Source: Pseudomonas silesiensis (GTDB lineage: Bacteria > Pseudomonadota > Gammaproteobacteria > Pseudomonadales > Pseudomonadaceae). Taken from it: a stretch of DNA of 64,000 nt. Position 1 is the stretch's first letter. The number at the start of each line of letters is the position of its first letter. This document shows, in pieces, positions 17,936-24,887 of the stretch. The translations under genes were made by a program, and so were the position numbers. The stretch lies in NCBI RefSeq assembly GCF_001661075.1, contig NZ_CP014870.1, positions 2,996,501 to 3,060,500 on the forward strand, written 5' to 3'. The notes below the pieces were generated by a model that was not told where the DNA came from, searched no databases, and saw nothing but the letters and a program-made list of their open reading frames with translations.

Positions 17936-18637
17936 CTAGACCACTGCGCCAAACAAGTGCCCCACCAAGGCCGTAATGCCCATGGCCAGAGCCCCCCAGA
18001 AGGTCACGCGCCAGGCGCCGGTCATGACGTTGGCCCCGCCAGCCTTGGCGGCAATGGCGCCCAATATCCCGAGAAACACCAATGACATGCCCGATATCCA
18101 GGGCACCACGCTGTGCTCCGGCGCGACAAACGTCACCGCCAGAGGCAGCGCGGCACCCACCACGAAACTGGCGGCGGAGGCGAGGGCAGCCTGCAAGGGT
18201 TTTGCGGTGAGGGTGGCGCTGATGCCCAACTCGTCCCGGGCGTGAGAGCCCAGTGCGTCATGGGCCATCAATTGATCGGCCACTTGATGCGCCAGTTCGG
18301 GTGATACGCCGCGATGCATGTATATGTTGGCGAGTTCGATGTGCTCGGCTTTCGGGTCGCTTGCCAGTTCTGCCCGTTCGCGGGACAGATCGGCCCGCTC
18401 GGTATCGGCCTGGGAATGCACGGAAATGTACTCACCAGCGGCCATGGACATGGCGCCGGCCATCAACCCCGCCATACCGGTGACCAGCAAAGTGGCGTGG
18501 CTGGCGTTGGCGGCTGCGACGCCGATCAGCAGGCTGGCGGTAGAGACAATCCCGTCATTGGCGCCCAGGACGGCGGCGCGCAGCCAGCCGATACGATCGC
18601 TTCGATGTGCCTCGGTGTGCCTGTGCATGAATTTCAT
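17936..18637 (-). CDS. VIT1/CCC1-family iron/manganese transporter
   Basis: This 233-aa membrane protein contains GWLRAAVLGANDGIVSTASLLIGVAAA, the conserved first helix of the VIT family. It also has GAMSMAAGEYISVHSQAD, a middle charged metal-binding helix region (DTERADLSRERAEL), and three C-terminal helices. Family members move Fe(II) or Mn(II) out of the cytosol. It lies 70 bp downstream of apbE on the same strand and may be cotranscribed with the flavin/iron-reduction-like module, although it could have its own promoter. Confidence 0.88.
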   Translation of the reverse strand: MKFMHRHTEAHRSDRIGWLRAAVLGANDGIVSTASLLIGVAAANASHATLLVTGMAGLMAGAMSMAAGEYISVHSQADTERADLSRERAELASDPKAEHIELANIYMHRGVSPELAHQVADQLMAHDALGSHARDELGISATLTAKPLQAALASAASFVVGAALPLAVTFVAPEHSVVPWISGMSLVFLGILGAIAAKAGGANVMTGAWRVTFWGALAMGITALVGHLFGAVV

Positions 18638-18707: not shown

Positions 18708-19679
18708 TCAGCGGGCTTCAATTTGCGCCTGCAACTGGCCGCCGACAATGGATATTTCTTTGAACTGTTGCCCTTCGCGCAGCACGAACAAAGCATCCAT
18801 CCCGCGTTCCTGAGCCAGGCGTGGGCCCTCGGTTTCCCCCAGGACCATCAGCGCCGTGGCCCAGGCATCGGCGAGCATGCACGAGGCCGCCACCACGGTG
18901 ACGGCGGCGAGCGGGTTGCACAGCGGCGCGCCGGTGGCCGGGTTCATGGTATGAGCATAGGAATGACCGGCCACATCGACCCAATGTCGATAGTCCCCGG
19001 AGGTCGCGATAGCGGCATCGCCAAGTTCCATCACGCCCATGACTTCACGCACGTCCCGGCTGGGCTTTTCCAGGGCCACGACCCAGCACTGGCCGTCAGG
19101 TTTGACGCCCCGGGCGCGCATTTCGCCATCGATGCCGACCAGGTAGCGGGTGATGCCCAAACCCTCCAGGCAACGGGCCAGTTCATCCACGCCAAAACCT
19201 TTGGCGATGCCACTCAAATCAAGGTTCAGCGGCACGCGCTTGCGCACCTGATTGCCTTGCGGCTCAACCACTAATGCGGCGCTGGCTAACAGCCGGGCGC
19301 GCGGCGCAATCGTGCCGATCGCCTGCTCTGTGACCGTTTGCTCCCCTGGGCCGAAGCCCCAGGCGTTCACCAGGTCACCGACAGCGATGTCGAAGGCGCC
19401 GCCGGATTGCTGACTGACGCGCAATGCAGCAGACAGCACCGTGGCCAGATCCTTGGGCACCGACACCCATTCCTGCTCGGGGGCGGCATTGAGGCGGTTG
19501 AGGTCCGAGTCGGGTTTCCAGGTGGACATTTGCTGGTCCACCCGGGCCACGGCGCGGGCCAGGCGCTGGCCAACTTCGTCGGTATCGATCCCGGCCCCGG
19601 CATAAAACAGGGCGGTGTAGCGGGTGCCCATGGTTTCGCCGTTCAGGCTATAACGCTGCAACTCAGTAGACATCTTCAC
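18708..19679 (-). CDS. apbE: FAD:protein FMN transferase (ApbE)
   Basis: This 323-aa protein has ApbE hallmarks: MGTRYTALF at the N-terminus, GGAFDIAVGDLVNAWGFG, LDLSGIAKGFGVD, and the Mg-binding/catalytic region HTMNPATGAP with TVVAASCMLADAWATALMVLG. It transfers FMN from FAD to a Ser/Thr in D-x-x-S/T-G-A-T/S motifs of exported proteins. The GTG at 19679 is chosen because AAGGA lies 7 nt upstream. An ATG two codons later is the alternative. No clear signal peptide is visible, so the compartment is uncertain. It overlaps the upstream reductase gene by 17 bp, and the DUF2271 gene two positions upstream encodes a matching acceptor motif. Confidence 0.93.
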   Translation of the reverse strand: MKMSTELQRYSLNGETMGTRYTALFYAGAGIDTDEVGQRLARAVARVDQQMSTWKPDSDLNRLNAAPEQEWVSVPKDLATVLSAALRVSQQSGGAFDIAVGDLVNAWGFGPGEQTVTEQAIGTIAPRARLLASAALVVEPQGNQVRKRVPLNLDLSGIAKGFGVDELARCLEGLGITRYLVGIDGEMRARGVKPDGQCWVVALEKPSRDVREVMGVMELGDAAIATSGDYRHWVDVAGHSYAHTMNPATGAPLCNPLAAVTVVAASCMLADAWATALMVLGETEGPRLAQERGMDALFVLREGQQFKEISIVGGQLQAQIEAR

Positions 19680-21843
19680 GGTAGCGTCCTTGTGCCTTGA
19701 GGGTCAGCACACTCAGGTTGAGAGGCGCCAACACTTCATCAAGGGCCTGCATCACGCCTTTGGCCATTTCGCGACTGCCACACACCAGCACTTGGGCACC
19801 TTTTTCAATCAGCCGGCGCAAGGCCAGGGCATCGCCGATCAGCCGGTCTTGCACGTAGCTGCGGTCCTGGACCTGAGAGAAGGCGGCGCGCAGAGCCGTG
19901 AGGCGACGGTCCGACAAGTATTGGTTGAGCTCCGGTTCATAGAGAAAGTCCGAGGCGGGGTTGCGCCCGCCCCAATACAAGTGCATCGGGTGTCGGGCCT
20001 TGTTGTTGCGGATAAAACCGGCCAGAGGACCGATGCCGGTACCGGCGCCGATCAGGATCACCGGGTGCGTGCCCGAAGCCGGACGAAATTGCGGATTGGG
20101 CTGGATAAAAGCTTCGATCTGCGCGCCGATGTTCAGGCCATGAAGGAATTCCGAACACACGCCACCGTTGTGTTTACGCACACAGATCTCCAGCACTCCG
20201 TCCTGGGAGCCGCTGGCCAGCGAGTAGAAACGCGGGACCGGGCTGCCGGGGGGCACAATCCCGACCAGGTCGCCGGCCAGAAAACCCGGCAGCTCGCCGC
20301 AGGCTTTGAAGCGCAGGATGTGGGTCGGCGCATTTACCTGTTCGCCATAGGCAATCCGCTCTGTCAGCTGCAATTGATGGGTACGCGGCTGCTGCGGGGT
20401 GTGAACCAGCGCCAGCTCCTGCCCCAACACGTCGCCCAACGCATGACCCCAGCGCGCAAACTCCTGAGAGGACTGGCGGTTGACGGTTTCCAACCCCAGC
20501 AATGGCGAGCCACCGGCCTGCAACATCGCGTCCTGCACCTGATGGGCGTACTGACAGAACTGCGCAAACTGGCGGTCGCCCAGACCTAGCACAGCAAAGG
20601 GCAGGCCGGGTTTGAGGCCGGTTTTGGCCAGCCGCGTCAGGAACTGCGAAGCCGAGGCCGGCGCATCGCCGTCACCGTGGGTCGCGGTGAGGATGAACAC
20701 CCGTTGGGCATTGCGGTAATCGCCTACCCATTCATTCATTGCCGCGCTATGCACTTGATGGCCACTCTGGTGCAAGGCGTCGTGCAAGGTTTTGGCAAAG
20801 CCCCAAGTGCTGTTGTTTTCACTGCCCACCAGAATCACGCTGTCGGCGGAGTGGGCAGGGCTGTTGTGGCGAATGTTCGGGCCAGCCTTGCGGCGACGCC
20901 ACCACAACAGGATGCCGGTCACGCTCATCAACGGCACGCAGAGGGCGCAGAGCCCCAGCGGCAGGCCCAGCCACCACAGGCCTTCGCCGGTGTGCAGCTG
21001 ATAGATCCATTCGTAGAGGTTTTGCATCGAGTCGTGGGCTTGATAGGACAACAAGGCGCCGCTGGCCTGATCCACGTAGCCGTCGCCCTGGGCCGTGCGC
21101 AGGGAAAACACATCGTGCGGGTTGCCGGGGCTCGGGAAGACCAGCTCGCGCAGGTCGTTCAGGTCGGTGGCCTGTAAGGCTTGCAGCTTCGCCACCGGCA
21201 AGGCCGGGCCGGCGCTGACGTGGGCGGGGAAGGCGGGCTCACTCTGACTGCCGTCGGCGATAAAGCCAAAAGTGGTGGCGGACATGTAGAGCCCGCTCAA
21301 TGCCGACAGCAGCAGCCCGAGCAAGGCCAGTCGCCCGACTTCAGCATGCCAGCGCTGGCTGAAGGTGCCCCGCAGTGGCCGCAGCAGGTTGCGCCAGCCG
21401 CCCAGGCGCCGGGCCAGCAATAGCGCACCGGACACCGACAGCATCAGCATGAACAGCGCGCCGACACCCGACACCCCATGGCCCGGCGTGCCAAGAAACA
21501 GCGAGCGGTGCAGGTCTTTCACCCACCGTGAGAACGTGGATGGCTCGTAAGGTCCGAGGCTTTTGCCGGTCAATGGGTCGACCTTTTCAGCCCCGGCCTG
21601 ACCGTTCTGGTTGTAGTAGACGATCACCGTGCCGGACGCTGTGCGCTGGATCTGCTCCACGCCCGGAAAGTGGCTGGCAACGCGCCCGGCCAGTTGGCCG
21701 ACGTTGAGTTGTCCGGCAGGAGTGGACGTGCTGTGCAGGCGTTCCAGGGCCGGGTCGACAGACAGGATCGCGCCGCTGATGGCCAACAACATGACCAGCA
21801 GGGCGGCGATCAGGCCAGGTAGGGAATGGAACTGACGAAGCAT
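19663..21843 (-). CDS. PepSY-TM / flavodoxin / ferredoxin-reductase fusion (transmembrane flavin reductase)
   Basis: This 726-aa inner-membrane protein begins with a PepSY-TM region (residues about 1-330, four hydrophobic segments, HRSLFLGTPGHGVSG and WIYQLHTGEGLWWLGLP with haem-ligand-type histidines). A flavodoxin domain follows (about 340-490, LVGSENNSTWGFA, TATHGDGDAP), then an FNR-type FAD/NAD(P) domain (about 500-726, RFYSLASG, GAGTGIGPLAGF, VCGSREMAKGV). It can carry electrons from cytosolic NAD(P)H across the membrane. Its neighbours ApbE and the DUF2271 protein suggest the acceptor is a flavinylated periplasmic protein. Resemblance to sulfite reductase flavoprotein is limited to the C-terminal half. 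Confidence 0.9.
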   Translation of the reverse strand: MLRQFHSLPGLIAALLVMLLAISGAILSVDPALERLHSTSTPAGQLNVGQLAGRVASHFPGVEQIQRTASGTVIVYYNQNGQAGAEKVDPLTGKSLGPYEPSTFSRWVKDLHRSLFLGTPGHGVSGVGALFMLMLSVSGALLLARRLGGWRNLLRPLRGTFSQRWHAEVGRLALLGLLLSALSGLYMSATTFGFIADGSQSEPAFPAHVSAGPALPVAKLQALQATDLNDLRELVFPSPGNPHDVFSLRTAQGDGYVDQASGALLSYQAHDSMQNLYEWIYQLHTGEGLWWLGLPLGLCALCVPLMSVTGILLWWRRRKAGPNIRHNSPAHSADSVILVGSENNSTWGFAKTLHDALHQSGHQVHSAAMNEWVGDYRNAQRVFILTATHGDGDAPASASQFLTRLAKTGLKPGLPFAVLGLGDRQFAQFCQYAHQVQDAMLQAGGSPLLGLETVNRQSSQEFARWGHALGDVLGQELALVHTPQQPRTHQLQLTERIAYGEQVNAPTHILRFKACGELPGFLAGDLVGIVPPGSPVPRFYSLASGSQDGVLEICVRKHNGGVCSEFLHGLNIGAQIEAFIQPNPQFRPASGTHPVILIGAGTGIGPLAGFIRNNKARHPMHLYWGGRNPASDFLYEPELNQYLSDRRLTALRAAFSQVQDRSYVQDRLIGDALALRRLIEKGAQVLVCGSREMAKGVMQALDEVLAPLNLSVLTLKAQGRYREDVY

Positions 21844-21868
21844 GTTCAGCCTCCAGAAATGGCGGGTG

Positions 21869-22339
21869 CTACAGATCGTAAGTGAAGGACTCGACGTAGG
21901 TACTGCCGGTCGCCGGCTTGCCGGCGCCCTTGGATGTCAACGGCACGCTGACATCGGCGCGAGCGTCGCGTTTGTCCTCGACGGCGCTGTCGATGCGGAT
22001 CTGATACCCGGCATCAATCAGGGTGTCTGCCAGTTCGACGCTGACTTTAAGCGTGCGCCCACTGCCGACACTGGCGCCGCTGACCCCGTCAAACTCGCTC
22101 GGGTTCATCCCGCTGCCACGGGCCCAGTCGCCCAGGTGCTTGTAGTACTTGGCTTTCTTGCCGGCCACCCAAAGGGTTTTCTGGTATTGGCCATTGGCGT
22201 CGGTCACGTAGATCGCCAGATAGGCATCATTGCCGTTGTAGTCCTTGAGCTGTGTGGTCAAGGTCACTTCACGGGCCTGGGCCAGACCCGGCAGGGCAAT
22301 GGCGCCGGCAAGGCAGGTGGCTGCGATGATCTTTTTCAT
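21869..22339 (-). CDS. Periplasmic DUF2271 protein with an ApbE flavinylation motif
   Basis: This 156-aa protein has a signal peptide (MKKIIAATCLAGAIALPGLAQA, cut at 22) followed by a DUF2271 domain (WVAGKKAKYYKHLGDW and related stretches). The segment D84-G-V-S-G-A-S90 fits the D-x-x-S/T-G-A-T/S motif modified by ApbE, making S90 the predicted FMN site. It lies 25 bp upstream of the PepSY-TM reductase. AAGGA sits 7 nt before the ATG. A much longer in-frame extension upstream lacks a signal peptide and overlaps the next gene, so I reject it. Flavinylation is predicted and not shown. Confidence 0.85.
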   Translation of the reverse strand: MKKIIAATCLAGAIALPGLAQAREVTLTTQLKDYNGNDAYLAIYVTDANGQYQKTLWVAGKKAKYYKHLGDWARGSGMNPSEFDGVSGASVGSGRTLKVSVELADTLIDAGYQIRIDSAVEDKRDARADVSVPLTSKGAGKPATGSTYVESFTYDL

Positions 22340-22431
22340 GAGGGTGTCCTTTTGATCGTTAGGTCGAGAGCCTGGACCTGCTTGCTGACAGCAACCTGAA
22401 GCGCAGGGAAAACTCATCGACAGGTGAGGCG

Positions 22432-22755
22432 TCATTCGGTGAGCGGGCTGCCGAGGTAATCCCTGGCATCGCCGTCGTCGCGAAAATGGATCTCGAGTGT
22501 GCGCAAACGCAGCGAGGCCGGTGAGTAGCTGGCTTCGATGGCGTTGCCTTTTCGATCCAACCCCTTGAGCTCGTAACAACCGTCGTCGACCTTGATGCGT
22601 TGCACGCTCCAGCCGTATTGCCGCTCGACCTGCTGACGCAAGGTTTCGCGCGGTTGCCAGTCGCTCACCGGGTCGCTGCAATCGTCATCGGCCAGGGCGT
22701 AAGCACTGAGCAGCAGGCTCAACAGCGTGGCACTGGCAATAAAACCTGATTTCAT
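22432..22755 (-). CDS. Small periplasmic PepSY-domain protein
   Basis: This 107-aa protein has a signal peptide (cut after YALA, residue 22) and a PepSY domain: LRQQVERQYGWSVQRIKVDDGCYELKGLD, then GNAIEASYSPASLRLRTLEI. AGGAG precedes the ATG by 7 nt. It is the first gene of the minus-strand flavin module and is divergent from the response regulator. PepSY domains often act as periplasmic inhibitors or sensor partners, so a role in signal input to the adjacent histidine kinase is possible. Confidence 0.85.
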   Translation of the reverse strand: MKSGFIASATLLSLLLSAYALADDDCSDPVSDWQPRETLRQQVERQYGWSVQRIKVDDGCYELKGLDRKGNAIEASYSPASLRLRTLEIHFRDDGDARDYLGSPLTE

Positions 22756-22794
22756 GATCTGTCTCCTGCCGAGGTCGGCGTCTGTGGCATACCC

Positions 22795-22858
22795 TAAGGT
22801 GCATTCCTGACAACCAGCTGAATCTTCAGATTCACGTCAGGTAAGGCGATTAAGGTGC
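22795..22858. promoter_or_regulatory. Divergent promoter region with a 16-bp palindrome and TAAGG repeats
   Basis: TGAATCTTCAGATTCA (22819-22834) is a perfect palindrome, flanked by CCTGAC (22806-22811) and GTCAGG (22836-22841), which are also inverted. TAAGGTGC occurs at 22795-22802 and 22851-22858, and TAAGG recurs at 22842 and 22851. Such direct TAAGG/CCTTA repeats resemble binding sites of PmrA/QseB-type regulators, so this is the likely autoregulatory site of the adjacent response regulator. Confidence 0.55.
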
Positions 22859-22887
22859 TGCACGACAACCATCACAGGGGGTGCCAG

Positions 22888-23547
22888 ATGCGGGTTTTAT
22901 TGGTCGAGGACGCAGCAGGGTTGGGGGAGGCGGTGCGCGAACAGATCGCTGATGATGGCCACGCCGTCGATTGGGTGCAGCGCCTGGATCATGCGCGCAA
23001 TAGCGTGCGCACTACGCCTTACGACCTGATCCTGCTGGACCTGATGCTCCCGGATGGTCGCGGGCTGGATTTTTTGCGTCAACAACGCTCGGCAGGAGAC
23101 GTGACCCCGGTGATTATCCTGACTGCGCAAGACCAGATTTCCGATCGTATTGCTGGCCTCAATGCTGGCGCCGACGACTACCTGGTCAAACCGTTCGACT
23201 TGTTTGAACTCTCGGCCCGTGTGGCGGCGGTGGCCCGGCGTTACAGCGGCAATCCCAATCCGCAGATCAAGCTCGGTGATTTGCAGGTCGACATGAGCGC
23301 CCGCACAGTGCAGCGGGCCGGCGCAACGGTGGACCTCACGGCGCGAGAATGGGCGCTGTTCGAGGCCTTTGTGCAGCGCCCCAGCGCGCTGCTGTCCAAG
23401 TCGCAACTGGAAGAGCGGCTGTATGCTTTCGGCGCCGAAATCGAGAGCAATACCATCGAGGTCTATATCAGCCGTTTGCGTAAAAAACTCGGGCGCGACC
23501 TGATTGAAACCGTGCGGGGCATGGGCTACCGGTTGATGTCCGCATGA
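22888..23547 (+). CDS. OmpR/PmrA-type response regulator
   Basis: This 219-aa protein has a receiver domain (MRVLLVEDAAGLGE; phospho-acceptor D51 in LILLDLMLPDG; conserved K in LVKPFDLFEL) and a winged-helix DNA-binding domain (about 125-219, LTAREWALFEAFVQRPSALLSKSQLEERLY, ending in GRDLIETVRGMGYRL). The start at 22888 has GGGGG upstream. Its stop overlaps the kinase start (ATGA). It is divergent from the PepSY/DUF2271/reductase/apbE operon, which it probably controls. Confidence 0.93.
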   Translation: MRVLLVEDAAGLGEAVREQIADDGHAVDWVQRLDHARNSVRTTPYDLILLDLMLPDGRGLDFLRQQRSAGDVTPVIILTAQDQISDRIAGLNAGADDYLVKPFDLFELSARVAAVARRYSGNPNPQIKLGDLQVDMSARTVQRAGATVDLTAREWALFEAFVQRPSALLSKSQLEERLYAFGAEIESNTIEVYISRLRKKLGRDLIETVRGMGYRLMSA

Positions 23548-24887
23548 AGCCGTCGTCAAGCCTGCAAAAACGTCTCGGCCTGGGATTGACGCTGGGCACC
23601 ACCTTACTGTGGCTGGCGGCGACCGTCGGTGCCTGGCTGGTGGTGCAACATGAATTGAACGAGGCGTTCGACAGCGCGCTGGAAGAAACCGCGCAGCGCA
23701 TCCTGCCCCTGGCCGTGCTGGAAATCAGCAACCGGGAAAATCCCCGTGAGGCGCAACATGTTGCCACCCTGAAAATGCACAAGGAATACCTGACGTACCT
23801 GGTGCGCGATGCCCAGGGCCAAATCCTGATGCAGTCCCACGACGCCAACCCGAAGATCTTCAACCAACATCCGGCCGAAGGCTTTTCAACCACAAAAAAA
23901 TACCGTCTGTACGGCGCCAGTGCGCTACGTGAAACAGTGTTTATCGAGATTGCCGAACCTCTGGAACACCGCCGTGAAGCGGCACGTGAAGCGTTGCTTG
24001 CCTTGTTGTTGCCATTATTGGCGCTGATTCCCATCAGCCTGTTGGGCACGTGGTTGTTTGTGCGCATCAGCTTGCGCAGTGTATTGGCCTATCGTCGTGC
24101 CGTGGAGGCTCGAGGGGTAGGTGATCTGTCGCCGATCAGCGGGGCGCGATTGCCGGCGGAAATCGCACCACTGGCGGAGGCGGTCAATCATCTGCTGGAG
24201 CGCTTGCGCAAGGCCTTGGAGAGCGAACGCAGCTTTACTGCCAACAGCGCCCATGAACTGCGTACGCCACTGGCGGCGACCCTGGCGCAAATCCAGCGAC
24301 TGCACCATGAGGCGCCCGAGGGCCCGTTGCGAGTACGTGCGGCGAAAATCGAAAACGCGTTGCGCGACCTGGCGCGACTCTCGGAAAAACTCATGCAACT
24401 GGCCAAGGCCGAAGGCGGTGGCCTGTTGTCCGAAACGCCTCAGGACCTGATTCCGTTGCTGGCCCATGGGGTCGACGAATGGAACCAACGCAGCGGCCAG
24501 CGCATTGCGCTGCAGTTGCCCAACCAGGCTTGCGTTTACTCGACCATCGACCCGGACGCTTTCGGCATTTTGCTGCGCAACCTGATTGAGAATGCGCTGA
24601 AGTATGGTGCAGCGGATCAACCGGTCGAAGTCAGTCTCACCGAACAGGCCCGACTACGGGTGATCAATGGCGGCCCAGCGGTGCCGGCGCCGGTTTTGCA
24701 GCACCTGACCGAGCGCTTTGTGCGAGGTCACAGTGAGATCAGCGGTTCAGGCTTGGGCTTGGCGATTACCAAAACCATTGTGCAGGGAGTCAATGCGAGA
24801 ATGAATTTGGTCTCGCCAGCAACAGGTCGTCGCGACGGTTTCGAGGTATGCGTCTGGTTACCGCTCGCATCAACTATTGAAGTCTGA
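23544..24887 (+). CDS. Sensor histidine kinase, partner of the upstream regulator
   Basis: This 447-aa inner-membrane kinase has TM1 at about residues 13-34, a periplasmic region of about 115 residues, and TM2 at about 150-175. A HAMP-like linker follows, then HisKA with H237 in SAHELRTPLAATLAQIQR and HATPase_c (N-box LIENALKYG, G-box GSGLGLAITKTIV). It belongs to the QseC/PmrB class. The periplasmic part lacks an obvious ExxE iron motif of BqsS type, so the signal is unknown. Its gene position points to redox, metal or the periplasmic PepSY protein. Confidence 0.92.
   Translation: MKPSSSLQKRLGLGLTLGTTLLWLAATVGAWLVVQHELNEAFDSALEETAQRILPLAVLEISNRENPREAQHVATLKMHKEYLTYLVRDAQGQILMQSHDANPKIFNQHPAEGFSTTKKYRLYGASALRETVFIEIAEPLEHRREAAREALLALLLPLLALIPISLLGTWLFVRISLRSVLAYRRAVEARGVGDLSPISGARLPAEIAPLAEAVNHLLERLRKALESERSFTANSAHELRTPLAATLAQIQRLHHEAPEGPLRVRAAKIENALRDLARLSEKLMQLAKAEGGGLLSETPQDLIPLLAHGVDEWNQRSGQRIALQLPNQACVYSTIDPDAFGILLRNLIENALKYGAADQPVEVSLTEQARLRVINGGPAVPAPVLQHLTERFVRGHSEISGSGLGLAITKTIVQGVNARMNLVSPATGRRDGFEVCVWLPLASTIEV

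Follow-up and report, generated by a model that had tools for sequence, protein, structure and literature searches.

Clusters that encode a PepSY-like membrane protein together with genes for flavinylation form a published class, of which 3220 are reported in the survey that describes them; 2833 contain DUF2271, 167 contain VIT1, and an NAD-binding domain is present in 1077 of the PepSY-like genes (Meheust et al. 2021, PMC8238504). The word 'sensor' is absent from the main text of that survey and 'two-component' occurs there solely in the title of a reference. FoxB of P. aeruginosa, a ferrioxamine reductase, is described with a PepSY_TM membrane part and two heme sites of two histidines each (PDB 7ABW, PMC11334425). 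In the BqsRS/CarRS system of the same species, an OmpR-family regulator recognizes two pentamers 6 bp apart, TTAAG-N6-TTAAG for BqsR (PMC4682146), and the sensor BqsS uses an ExxE glutamate motif in its periplasmic domain (PMC12666569). A cytosolic ApbE without signal peptide has been reported from Klebsiella pneumoniae, where it acts on a soluble fumarate reductase of the cytosol (PMC12052999).

The window analysed here is a stretch of 64,000 nucleotides from Pseudomonas silesiensis (C1:2996501-3060500 of a single-contig 6.82-Mb genome). Judged by sequence, the module in it is a member of the PepSY-like class; as in the survey (PMC8238504), a PepSY_TM protein is clustered with DUF2271 and ApbE. 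The gene for a PF03929 protein is accompanied by one for flavinylation; the class calls for a signal peptide on one or more of ApbE, FMN_bind, DUF3570 and DUF2271, and here DUF2271 has it; and the [S/T]GA[S/T] motif is found in DUF2271 of the window and of 74/74 homologues. The locus differs from the clusters as described there in its divergent two-component system with tandem boxes and in its signal-less ApbE, and no DUF4198 was found in the seven proteins scanned.

The fusion protein has the two conserved histidine pairs of the FoxB type in its membrane part, but unlike FoxB it is fused to a flavodoxin/reductase and has a partner that carries a flavinylation motif. The regulatory system shares with BqsRS/CarRS the OmpR-family regulator and the spacing of the pentamers, although the consensus here is TTCAG/GTCAG and not TTAAG; the HExxE of most of the sensor kinases may correspond to the periplasmic glutamate motif. 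The regulator scores 154.9 bits with full-length BasR/PmrA, against 95.1 bits with the receiver and 69.7 bits with the DNA-binding domain of CarR, which are single-domain chains. The ApbE of the operon lacks a signal peptide like that of K. pneumoniae, but its presumed substrate is exported.

The locus is very probably a flavinylated electron-export module. The explanation as a whole, a PepSY-type module with its own two-component system, cytosolic FMN loading before Sec export, control through three boxes and reduction of a metal, is held somewhat more probable than not.

Gene order, acceptor motif and electron path

The PepSY_2 gene (22432-22755, minus strand; Pfam 85.6 bits) encodes a predicted secreted protein of 107 aa with a hydrophobic N-terminus, in which Cys26 and Cys60 are conserved (at least 90% in 60 sequences). 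After 92 bp comes the DUF2271 gene (21869-22339, minus strand; Pfam 123.9 bits), whose product has 156 aa from the ATG at 22339 and a Sec-type signal peptide, and after another 25 bp the gene for the 726-aa fusion of PepSY_TM, Flavodoxin_1 and an FAD/NAD(P)H reductase (19663-21843, minus strand). The start of the gene for the ApbE flavin transferase, a GTG, overlaps the stop of the fusion gene by 17 bp (18708-19679, minus strand; Pfam ApbE 270.5 bits). The VIT1-family metal transporter gene (17936-18637, minus strand; Pfam 227.7 bits), 70 bp downstream, is probably the final gene of the transcription unit. The plus strand carries an OmpR-family response regulator (about 22888-23547, first possible start the GTG at 22855) that resembles PmrA/BasR and CarR(BqsR) and, overlapping it by 4 bp, a 2CSK_N sensor kinase (23544-24887) that resembles QseC/PmrB.

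The gene content given in an earlier note on this DNA, with PepSY_2, DUF2271, fusion and ApbE on the minus strand and an OmpR-type regulator with its kinase running the other way, agrees with the Pfam families. Its proposal of one minus-strand operon, drawn from the close spacing and overlaps, may need correction, since a conserved operator-like box is found 61 bp ahead of DUF2271 and could give this gene a promoter apart from that of PepSY_2.

Homologous loci were fetched with the fusion as query, and the resulting 75 loci are hence unselected for DUF2271 or its motif. Fusion proteins with 96% identity to that of the window occur in strains such as P. frederiksbergensis AS1 and P. mandelii OWC5. 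A DUF2271 match was found directly upstream of the fusion in 74/75 loci (in L118 a partial match only), and the 75th locus, L115, is a partial fusion match. The acceptor motif D84-G-V-S-G-A-S90 of the window (22070-22090, minus strand; residues 84-90) recurs as D-G-[VIL]-[ST]-G-A-S in all 74 homologous DUF2271 proteins, and D84, G85, G88, A89 and S90 are invariant in an alignment of 32 sequences (that of the window and 31 homologues). As these loci were unselected for the motif, its sequence conservation indicates that DGVSGAS is not there by chance. This bears out its identification as the ApbE acceptor motif; the earlier note had held that homologous DUF2271 proteins never matching it would speak against the module, and the opposite was found. 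No acceptor motif was present in the other eight proteins of the unit that were checked. Searches with the DUF2271 model (mean pLDDT 75) gave no PDB match better than E 0.055.

Pfam divides the fusion into PepSY_TM, Flavodoxin_1, FAD_binding_6 and NAD_binding_1; the C-terminal part is CysJ/CPR-like, with matches to sulfite reductase flavoprotein and P450 reductase. Across 73 sequences, four histidines (H6, H112, H166 and H284) show at least 97% conservation, in a two-heme pattern. The AlphaFold model has four long helices (residues 7-36, 121-147, 161-191 and 290-320) with mean pLDDT 77 and pTM 0.45. Foldseek listed 50 PDB matches for this model, all of the diflavin-reductase type, and FoxB is not among the matches listed. 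From the positions of the residues, we infer heme pairing by H6/H166 and H112/H284.

NAD(P)H would reduce FAD and FMN in the fusion's cytosolic domains, and electrons would cross the membrane on two hemes held by these two histidine pairs to reach FMN on Ser90 of periplasmic DUF2271. The FMN-bearing DUF2271 would in turn pass them on to a metal, for which Fe(III) or a ferric chelate is the likeliest candidate. A route from NAD(P)H through the fusion to FMN on DUF2271 had been outlined before, and its course over flavins and two hemes fits the domains, the conserved histidines and the published class; the parts of it that we infer are the flavinylation and the direction of the electrons.

Flavinylation relative to export

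The module had also been called self-contained. The genes do lie together, but the term hides a contradiction, in that ApbE has no export signal and its DUF2271 substrate has one. Signals were predicted by two hydrophobicity rules on the Kyte-Doolittle scale, with start codons as predicted. The operon ApbE starts V-K-M-S-T-E-L-Q-R-Y-S-L-N-G-E-T and then enters the conserved core; these 16 residues before the Pfam core include no hydrophobic segment, the frame is open for just about 8 residues upstream of the start, and the N-terminal signal peptide or lipobox of a typical exported ApbE is not present. The N-terminus of DUF2271, MKKIIAATCLAGAIALPGLAQA (hydrophobicity 2.3), is predicted to be an ordinary Sec signal. 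Export through Tat, which would be a simple explanation for a preloaded cofactor, was rejected since a Tat motif was found in 0/74 homologues and in 0/55 loci of the phylum sample described below.

In 71/75 loci, the start of ApbE lies 17 nt within the fusion gene and no hydrophobic segment follows. The exceptions are one locus with no start ahead of a partial match (L082), two with an interrupted fusion frame (L116, L118) and one outside the listing (L088). As a class control, ApbE was found in 74/114 genomes, and the 29 best-scoring fetched loci were tested together with the two ApbEs of the window's genome. A hydrophobic N-terminus is present in 27 of these 31. The four others are the operon ApbE, the DUF2271-linked ApbE of L195 (from G430, the sole genome of the class control listed with DUF2271 over the cut-off), one with its N-terminus cut (L183) and one that is mis-registered (L176), in which a signal is visible on separate inspection. 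No clear signal was seen in seven further DUF2271-linked ApbEs, which came from a set of 20 other loci (highest value 1.54).

The phylum sample covers 398 genomes, 65 of them with DUF2271 over the cut-off, at 68 places. Without eight places already fetched (the window's included) and five fused ApbE-DUF2271 chains, 55 loci of 11-14 kb remain, 37 of which contain ApbE. DUF2271 has a signal in 54/55 by hydrophobicity alone and in 45/55 by the stricter rule. The linked ApbE is signal-like in 5/37 by hydrophobicity alone (L203, L211, L221, L240, L242) and in 2/37 by the stricter rule (L211 clear, with a lipobox; L221 marginal), against 27/27 control ApbEs, a set that omits L176, L183 and L195 as mis-registered, cut and DUF2271-linked, respectively. 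Many DUF2271-linked ApbEs (part of L202-L242) have, by eye, an R-[VI]-[LA]-[IV]-P stretch ahead of the core.

The number of ApbEs was checked in 44 genomes (37 of the phylum sample and 7 of the class sample). A single ApbE was found in 29/44, each time the DUF2271-linked one, and it is signal-less by the stricter rule in 28/29. FMN_bind proteins are encoded in 0/29 of these single-ApbE genomes; the window's genome has two. A strict [ST]GA[ST] site is present in the linked DUF2271 of 13/29, and 16/29 have variants such as TGPT, SGPT, SSAT and TQPT. Changed acceptor sites of these kinds beside a genome's only ApbE were seen in L152-L157 and part of L204-L242.

An ApbE without signal, a DUF2271 with one, and a linked ApbE that is often the only one of the genome suggest flavinylation before Sec export. 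The signal-less ApbE would attach FMN, taken from cytosolic FAD, to DUF2271 while this is still in the cytosol and ahead of its passage through Sec. The alternatives are flavinylation of DUF2271 prior to export, exit of ApbE by an undescribed route, or the lack of flavin on some DUF2271 proteins, and for the proteins with a strict motif the first is the simplest. Loading before export was at first given an even chance, which the recount of motifs (13/29 strict) lowered to slightly under even for this locus. The general form, in which a dedicated ApbE without signal loads DUF2271 across Pseudomonadota in the cytosol and the flavinylated chain then goes through Sec with no need for FAD export, is held a shade more tentatively still. 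If DUF2271 is loaded in this order, FAD export is sidestepped and a polypeptide with a covalent flavin has to fit through the Sec channel. No statement of flavinylation before Sec export was found in print in the literature searched, the coverage of which largely excluded subscription papers.

Published experiments show that co-expression of signal-truncated DUF2271 with ApbE in E. coli gives flavinylation, and that the DUF2271 of A. ursilacus is flavinylated in an ApbE-dependent manner that is lost on point mutation (PMC8238504). The A. ursilacus ApbE is there called 'signal peptide-truncated', so its authors saw a signal, which counts against loading before export. The variant motifs in 16/29 single-ApbE genomes and the lipoprotein signal on the linked ApbE of L211 also count against it, as does a second ApbE in the window's own genome (G000:C1:1917908-1918750, L036), which has a lipoprotein-type signal with a lipobox. 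An open frame upstream of this second gene reads like glyceraldehyde-3-phosphate dehydrogenase.

DUF2271 could instead receive its FMN in the periplasm once it has been exported, from the lipoprotein ApbE or from an operon ApbE exported along an undescribed route. With the lipoprotein ApbE as the enzyme, the signal-less one would have another task, for example cytosolic FAD hydrolysis, an activity known for some ApbEs (PMC12052999). Two plasmid copies of the module (L268, L270) point the same way; they have DGLTGAS in DUF2271 but no apbE within the 24-28 kb examined, and therefore another, probably periplasmic ApbE may serve there. Such periplasmic flavinylation is hard to reconcile with the 29 genomes that keep a linked ApbE and have neither a second ApbE nor FMN_bind, and with the strict motif in 13 of them; it is considered possible, with a chance of around one in three. 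Six single-chain ApbE-DUF2271 proteins, the five of the phylum sample (L257-L261) and L161, were set aside; a hydrophobic segment lies within the first 70 residues in 6/6 and their motifs are mostly degenerate.

The two-component system and its candidate operator

The two-component system adjoins the module in 54/75 loci. Alignment of the spacers between regulator and operon revealed a conserved block of two outward-facing tandem repeats, KTCAG-N6-KTCAG, with an 11-bp period. In the window, the form TTCAG-N6-GTCAG occurs 67 bp ahead of PepSY_2 (22807-22822, minus strand), facing the regulator (22825-22840, plus strand) and 61 bp ahead of DUF2271 (22385-22400, minus strand). KTCAG-N6-KTCAG is a candidate operator of the regulator, placed before the regulator itself, PepSY_2 and DUF2271. 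At a distance of 61-69 bp, such a box points toward the first gene of the operon in 54/54 loci with an adjacent two-component system, a count that overstates independence because many of these loci are close relatives; four have a second box further upstream. A box faces the regulator in 47/54 of these loci and precedes DUF2271 in 39/59 loci with PepSY_2.

The claim that the module has its own two-component system gains strength from this adjacency and from the boxes facing the operon, and the system very probably controls the module. The phosphorylated regulator would activate itself, PepSY_2 and the DUF2271 operon through the three tandem boxes. That the system is instead a mere divergent neighbour with another regulon would agree with the 20/74 loci that have the module and no adjacent two-component system (one, L060, cut by a contig end), of which 10 have a loose box match. 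This is, however, quite improbable. Single-base shuffles of the spacers contain the box in 0.5%, against all 54 real spacers, and diverged boxes occur at the same distance in loci of Alcaligenaceae, Lysobacter (TTAAG-N6-ATAAG) and Thermomonas. Plasmid and alphaproteobacterial copies with a regulator 75-77% identical repeat the box, which was seen in L268, L270 and L271, whereas L269, with a regulator 47% identical, has none.

Seven of the genomes without an adjacent two-component system have no kinase above 36% identity among the matches listed, and 6/7 keep the box at the usual distance (L055, L086, L096, L101, L102 and L108).

A wider regulon was rejected: exact copies of TTCAG-N6-GTCAGG number 6 genome-wide, and the reversed pattern that served as control has 3. 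Two of the six are the divergent pair at the locus and one lies inside an open frame (L119); L122-L124 were left out of the placement. Control by Fur was rejected as unconvincing, the best match in the loci listed being 13/19 to a 19-bp Fur consensus. The tandem boxes give a regulator and a candidate operator for a class whose survey cites Fur control (PMC8238504). PepSY_2 was considered as a dedicated partner of the kinase and rejected, being present in 15 loci without an adjacent two-component system and absent in 10 with one. Since its presence does not follow that of the system, PepSY_2 looks tied to the redox module.

The acceptor and the plasmid copies

HELNE (residues 36-40) follows the first hydrophobic segment of the kinase. 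Among 55 kinases, HExxE is present in 51 and missing in 4, RExxE is found in 1 and DYRED in 0. HExxE is named among iron-sensing motifs (PMC9769818). VIT1 follows ApbE in 34/75 loci, and on two plasmids a VIT1 just 29% identical to that of the window directly follows the fusion, in the same place. Genes for PepSY/DUF2271 proteins are tied to iron in Caulobacter, where they are Fur targets (PMC11870441), and respond to iron in Alteromonas (PMC7190382).

Iron had been put forward as a candidate acceptor on account of the metal transporter. The VIT1 genes and the HExxE motifs favour that candidacy, and the chance that iron is the main acceptor is put at about even. VIT/CCC1 proteins are exporters from the cytosol, and an uptake role of VIT1 is therefore uncertain; VIT1 may equally well serve in tolerance of iron or manganese. 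Iron uptake through VIT1 was proposed in the survey (PMC8238504).

Copper or another periplasmic oxidant might be the acceptor in place of iron, as CrpH, which belongs to another subfamily of PepSY_TM proteins, has been linked to copper and to heme-copper oxidases (PMC13038864) and one plasmid copy of the module adjoins Czc/Cus-type efflux genes. Against the recurrent VIT1, its distant form at the same place on the plasmids, and the iron response in Caulobacter and Alteromonas, this seems unlikely.

A DUF2271 homologue was found on 97 plasmid records, 71 of them conjugative. Four plasmid stretches were read (L268, L269, L270, L271), three of them with annotation, and all three place the module in the neighbourhood of phosphite or phosphonate genes; one of them has metal efflux genes next to it as well. 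L268 (Citrobacter pPSV) and L270 (Marinobacter NP-4) have the two-component system, the boxes, a ferric-reductase-like gene, DUF2271, the fusion and VIT1, and L271 has the two-component system, PepSY_2, DUF2271, the fusion and ApbE. In the genus sample, DUF2271 was over the cut-off in 65/398 genomes, and the patchy occurrence of the module fits exchange between strains. The Janthinobacterium plasmid (L269) carries metal efflux genes, a non-orthologous two-component system, PepSY, DUF2271 and a PepSY_TM gene that is shortened near an IS66 element.
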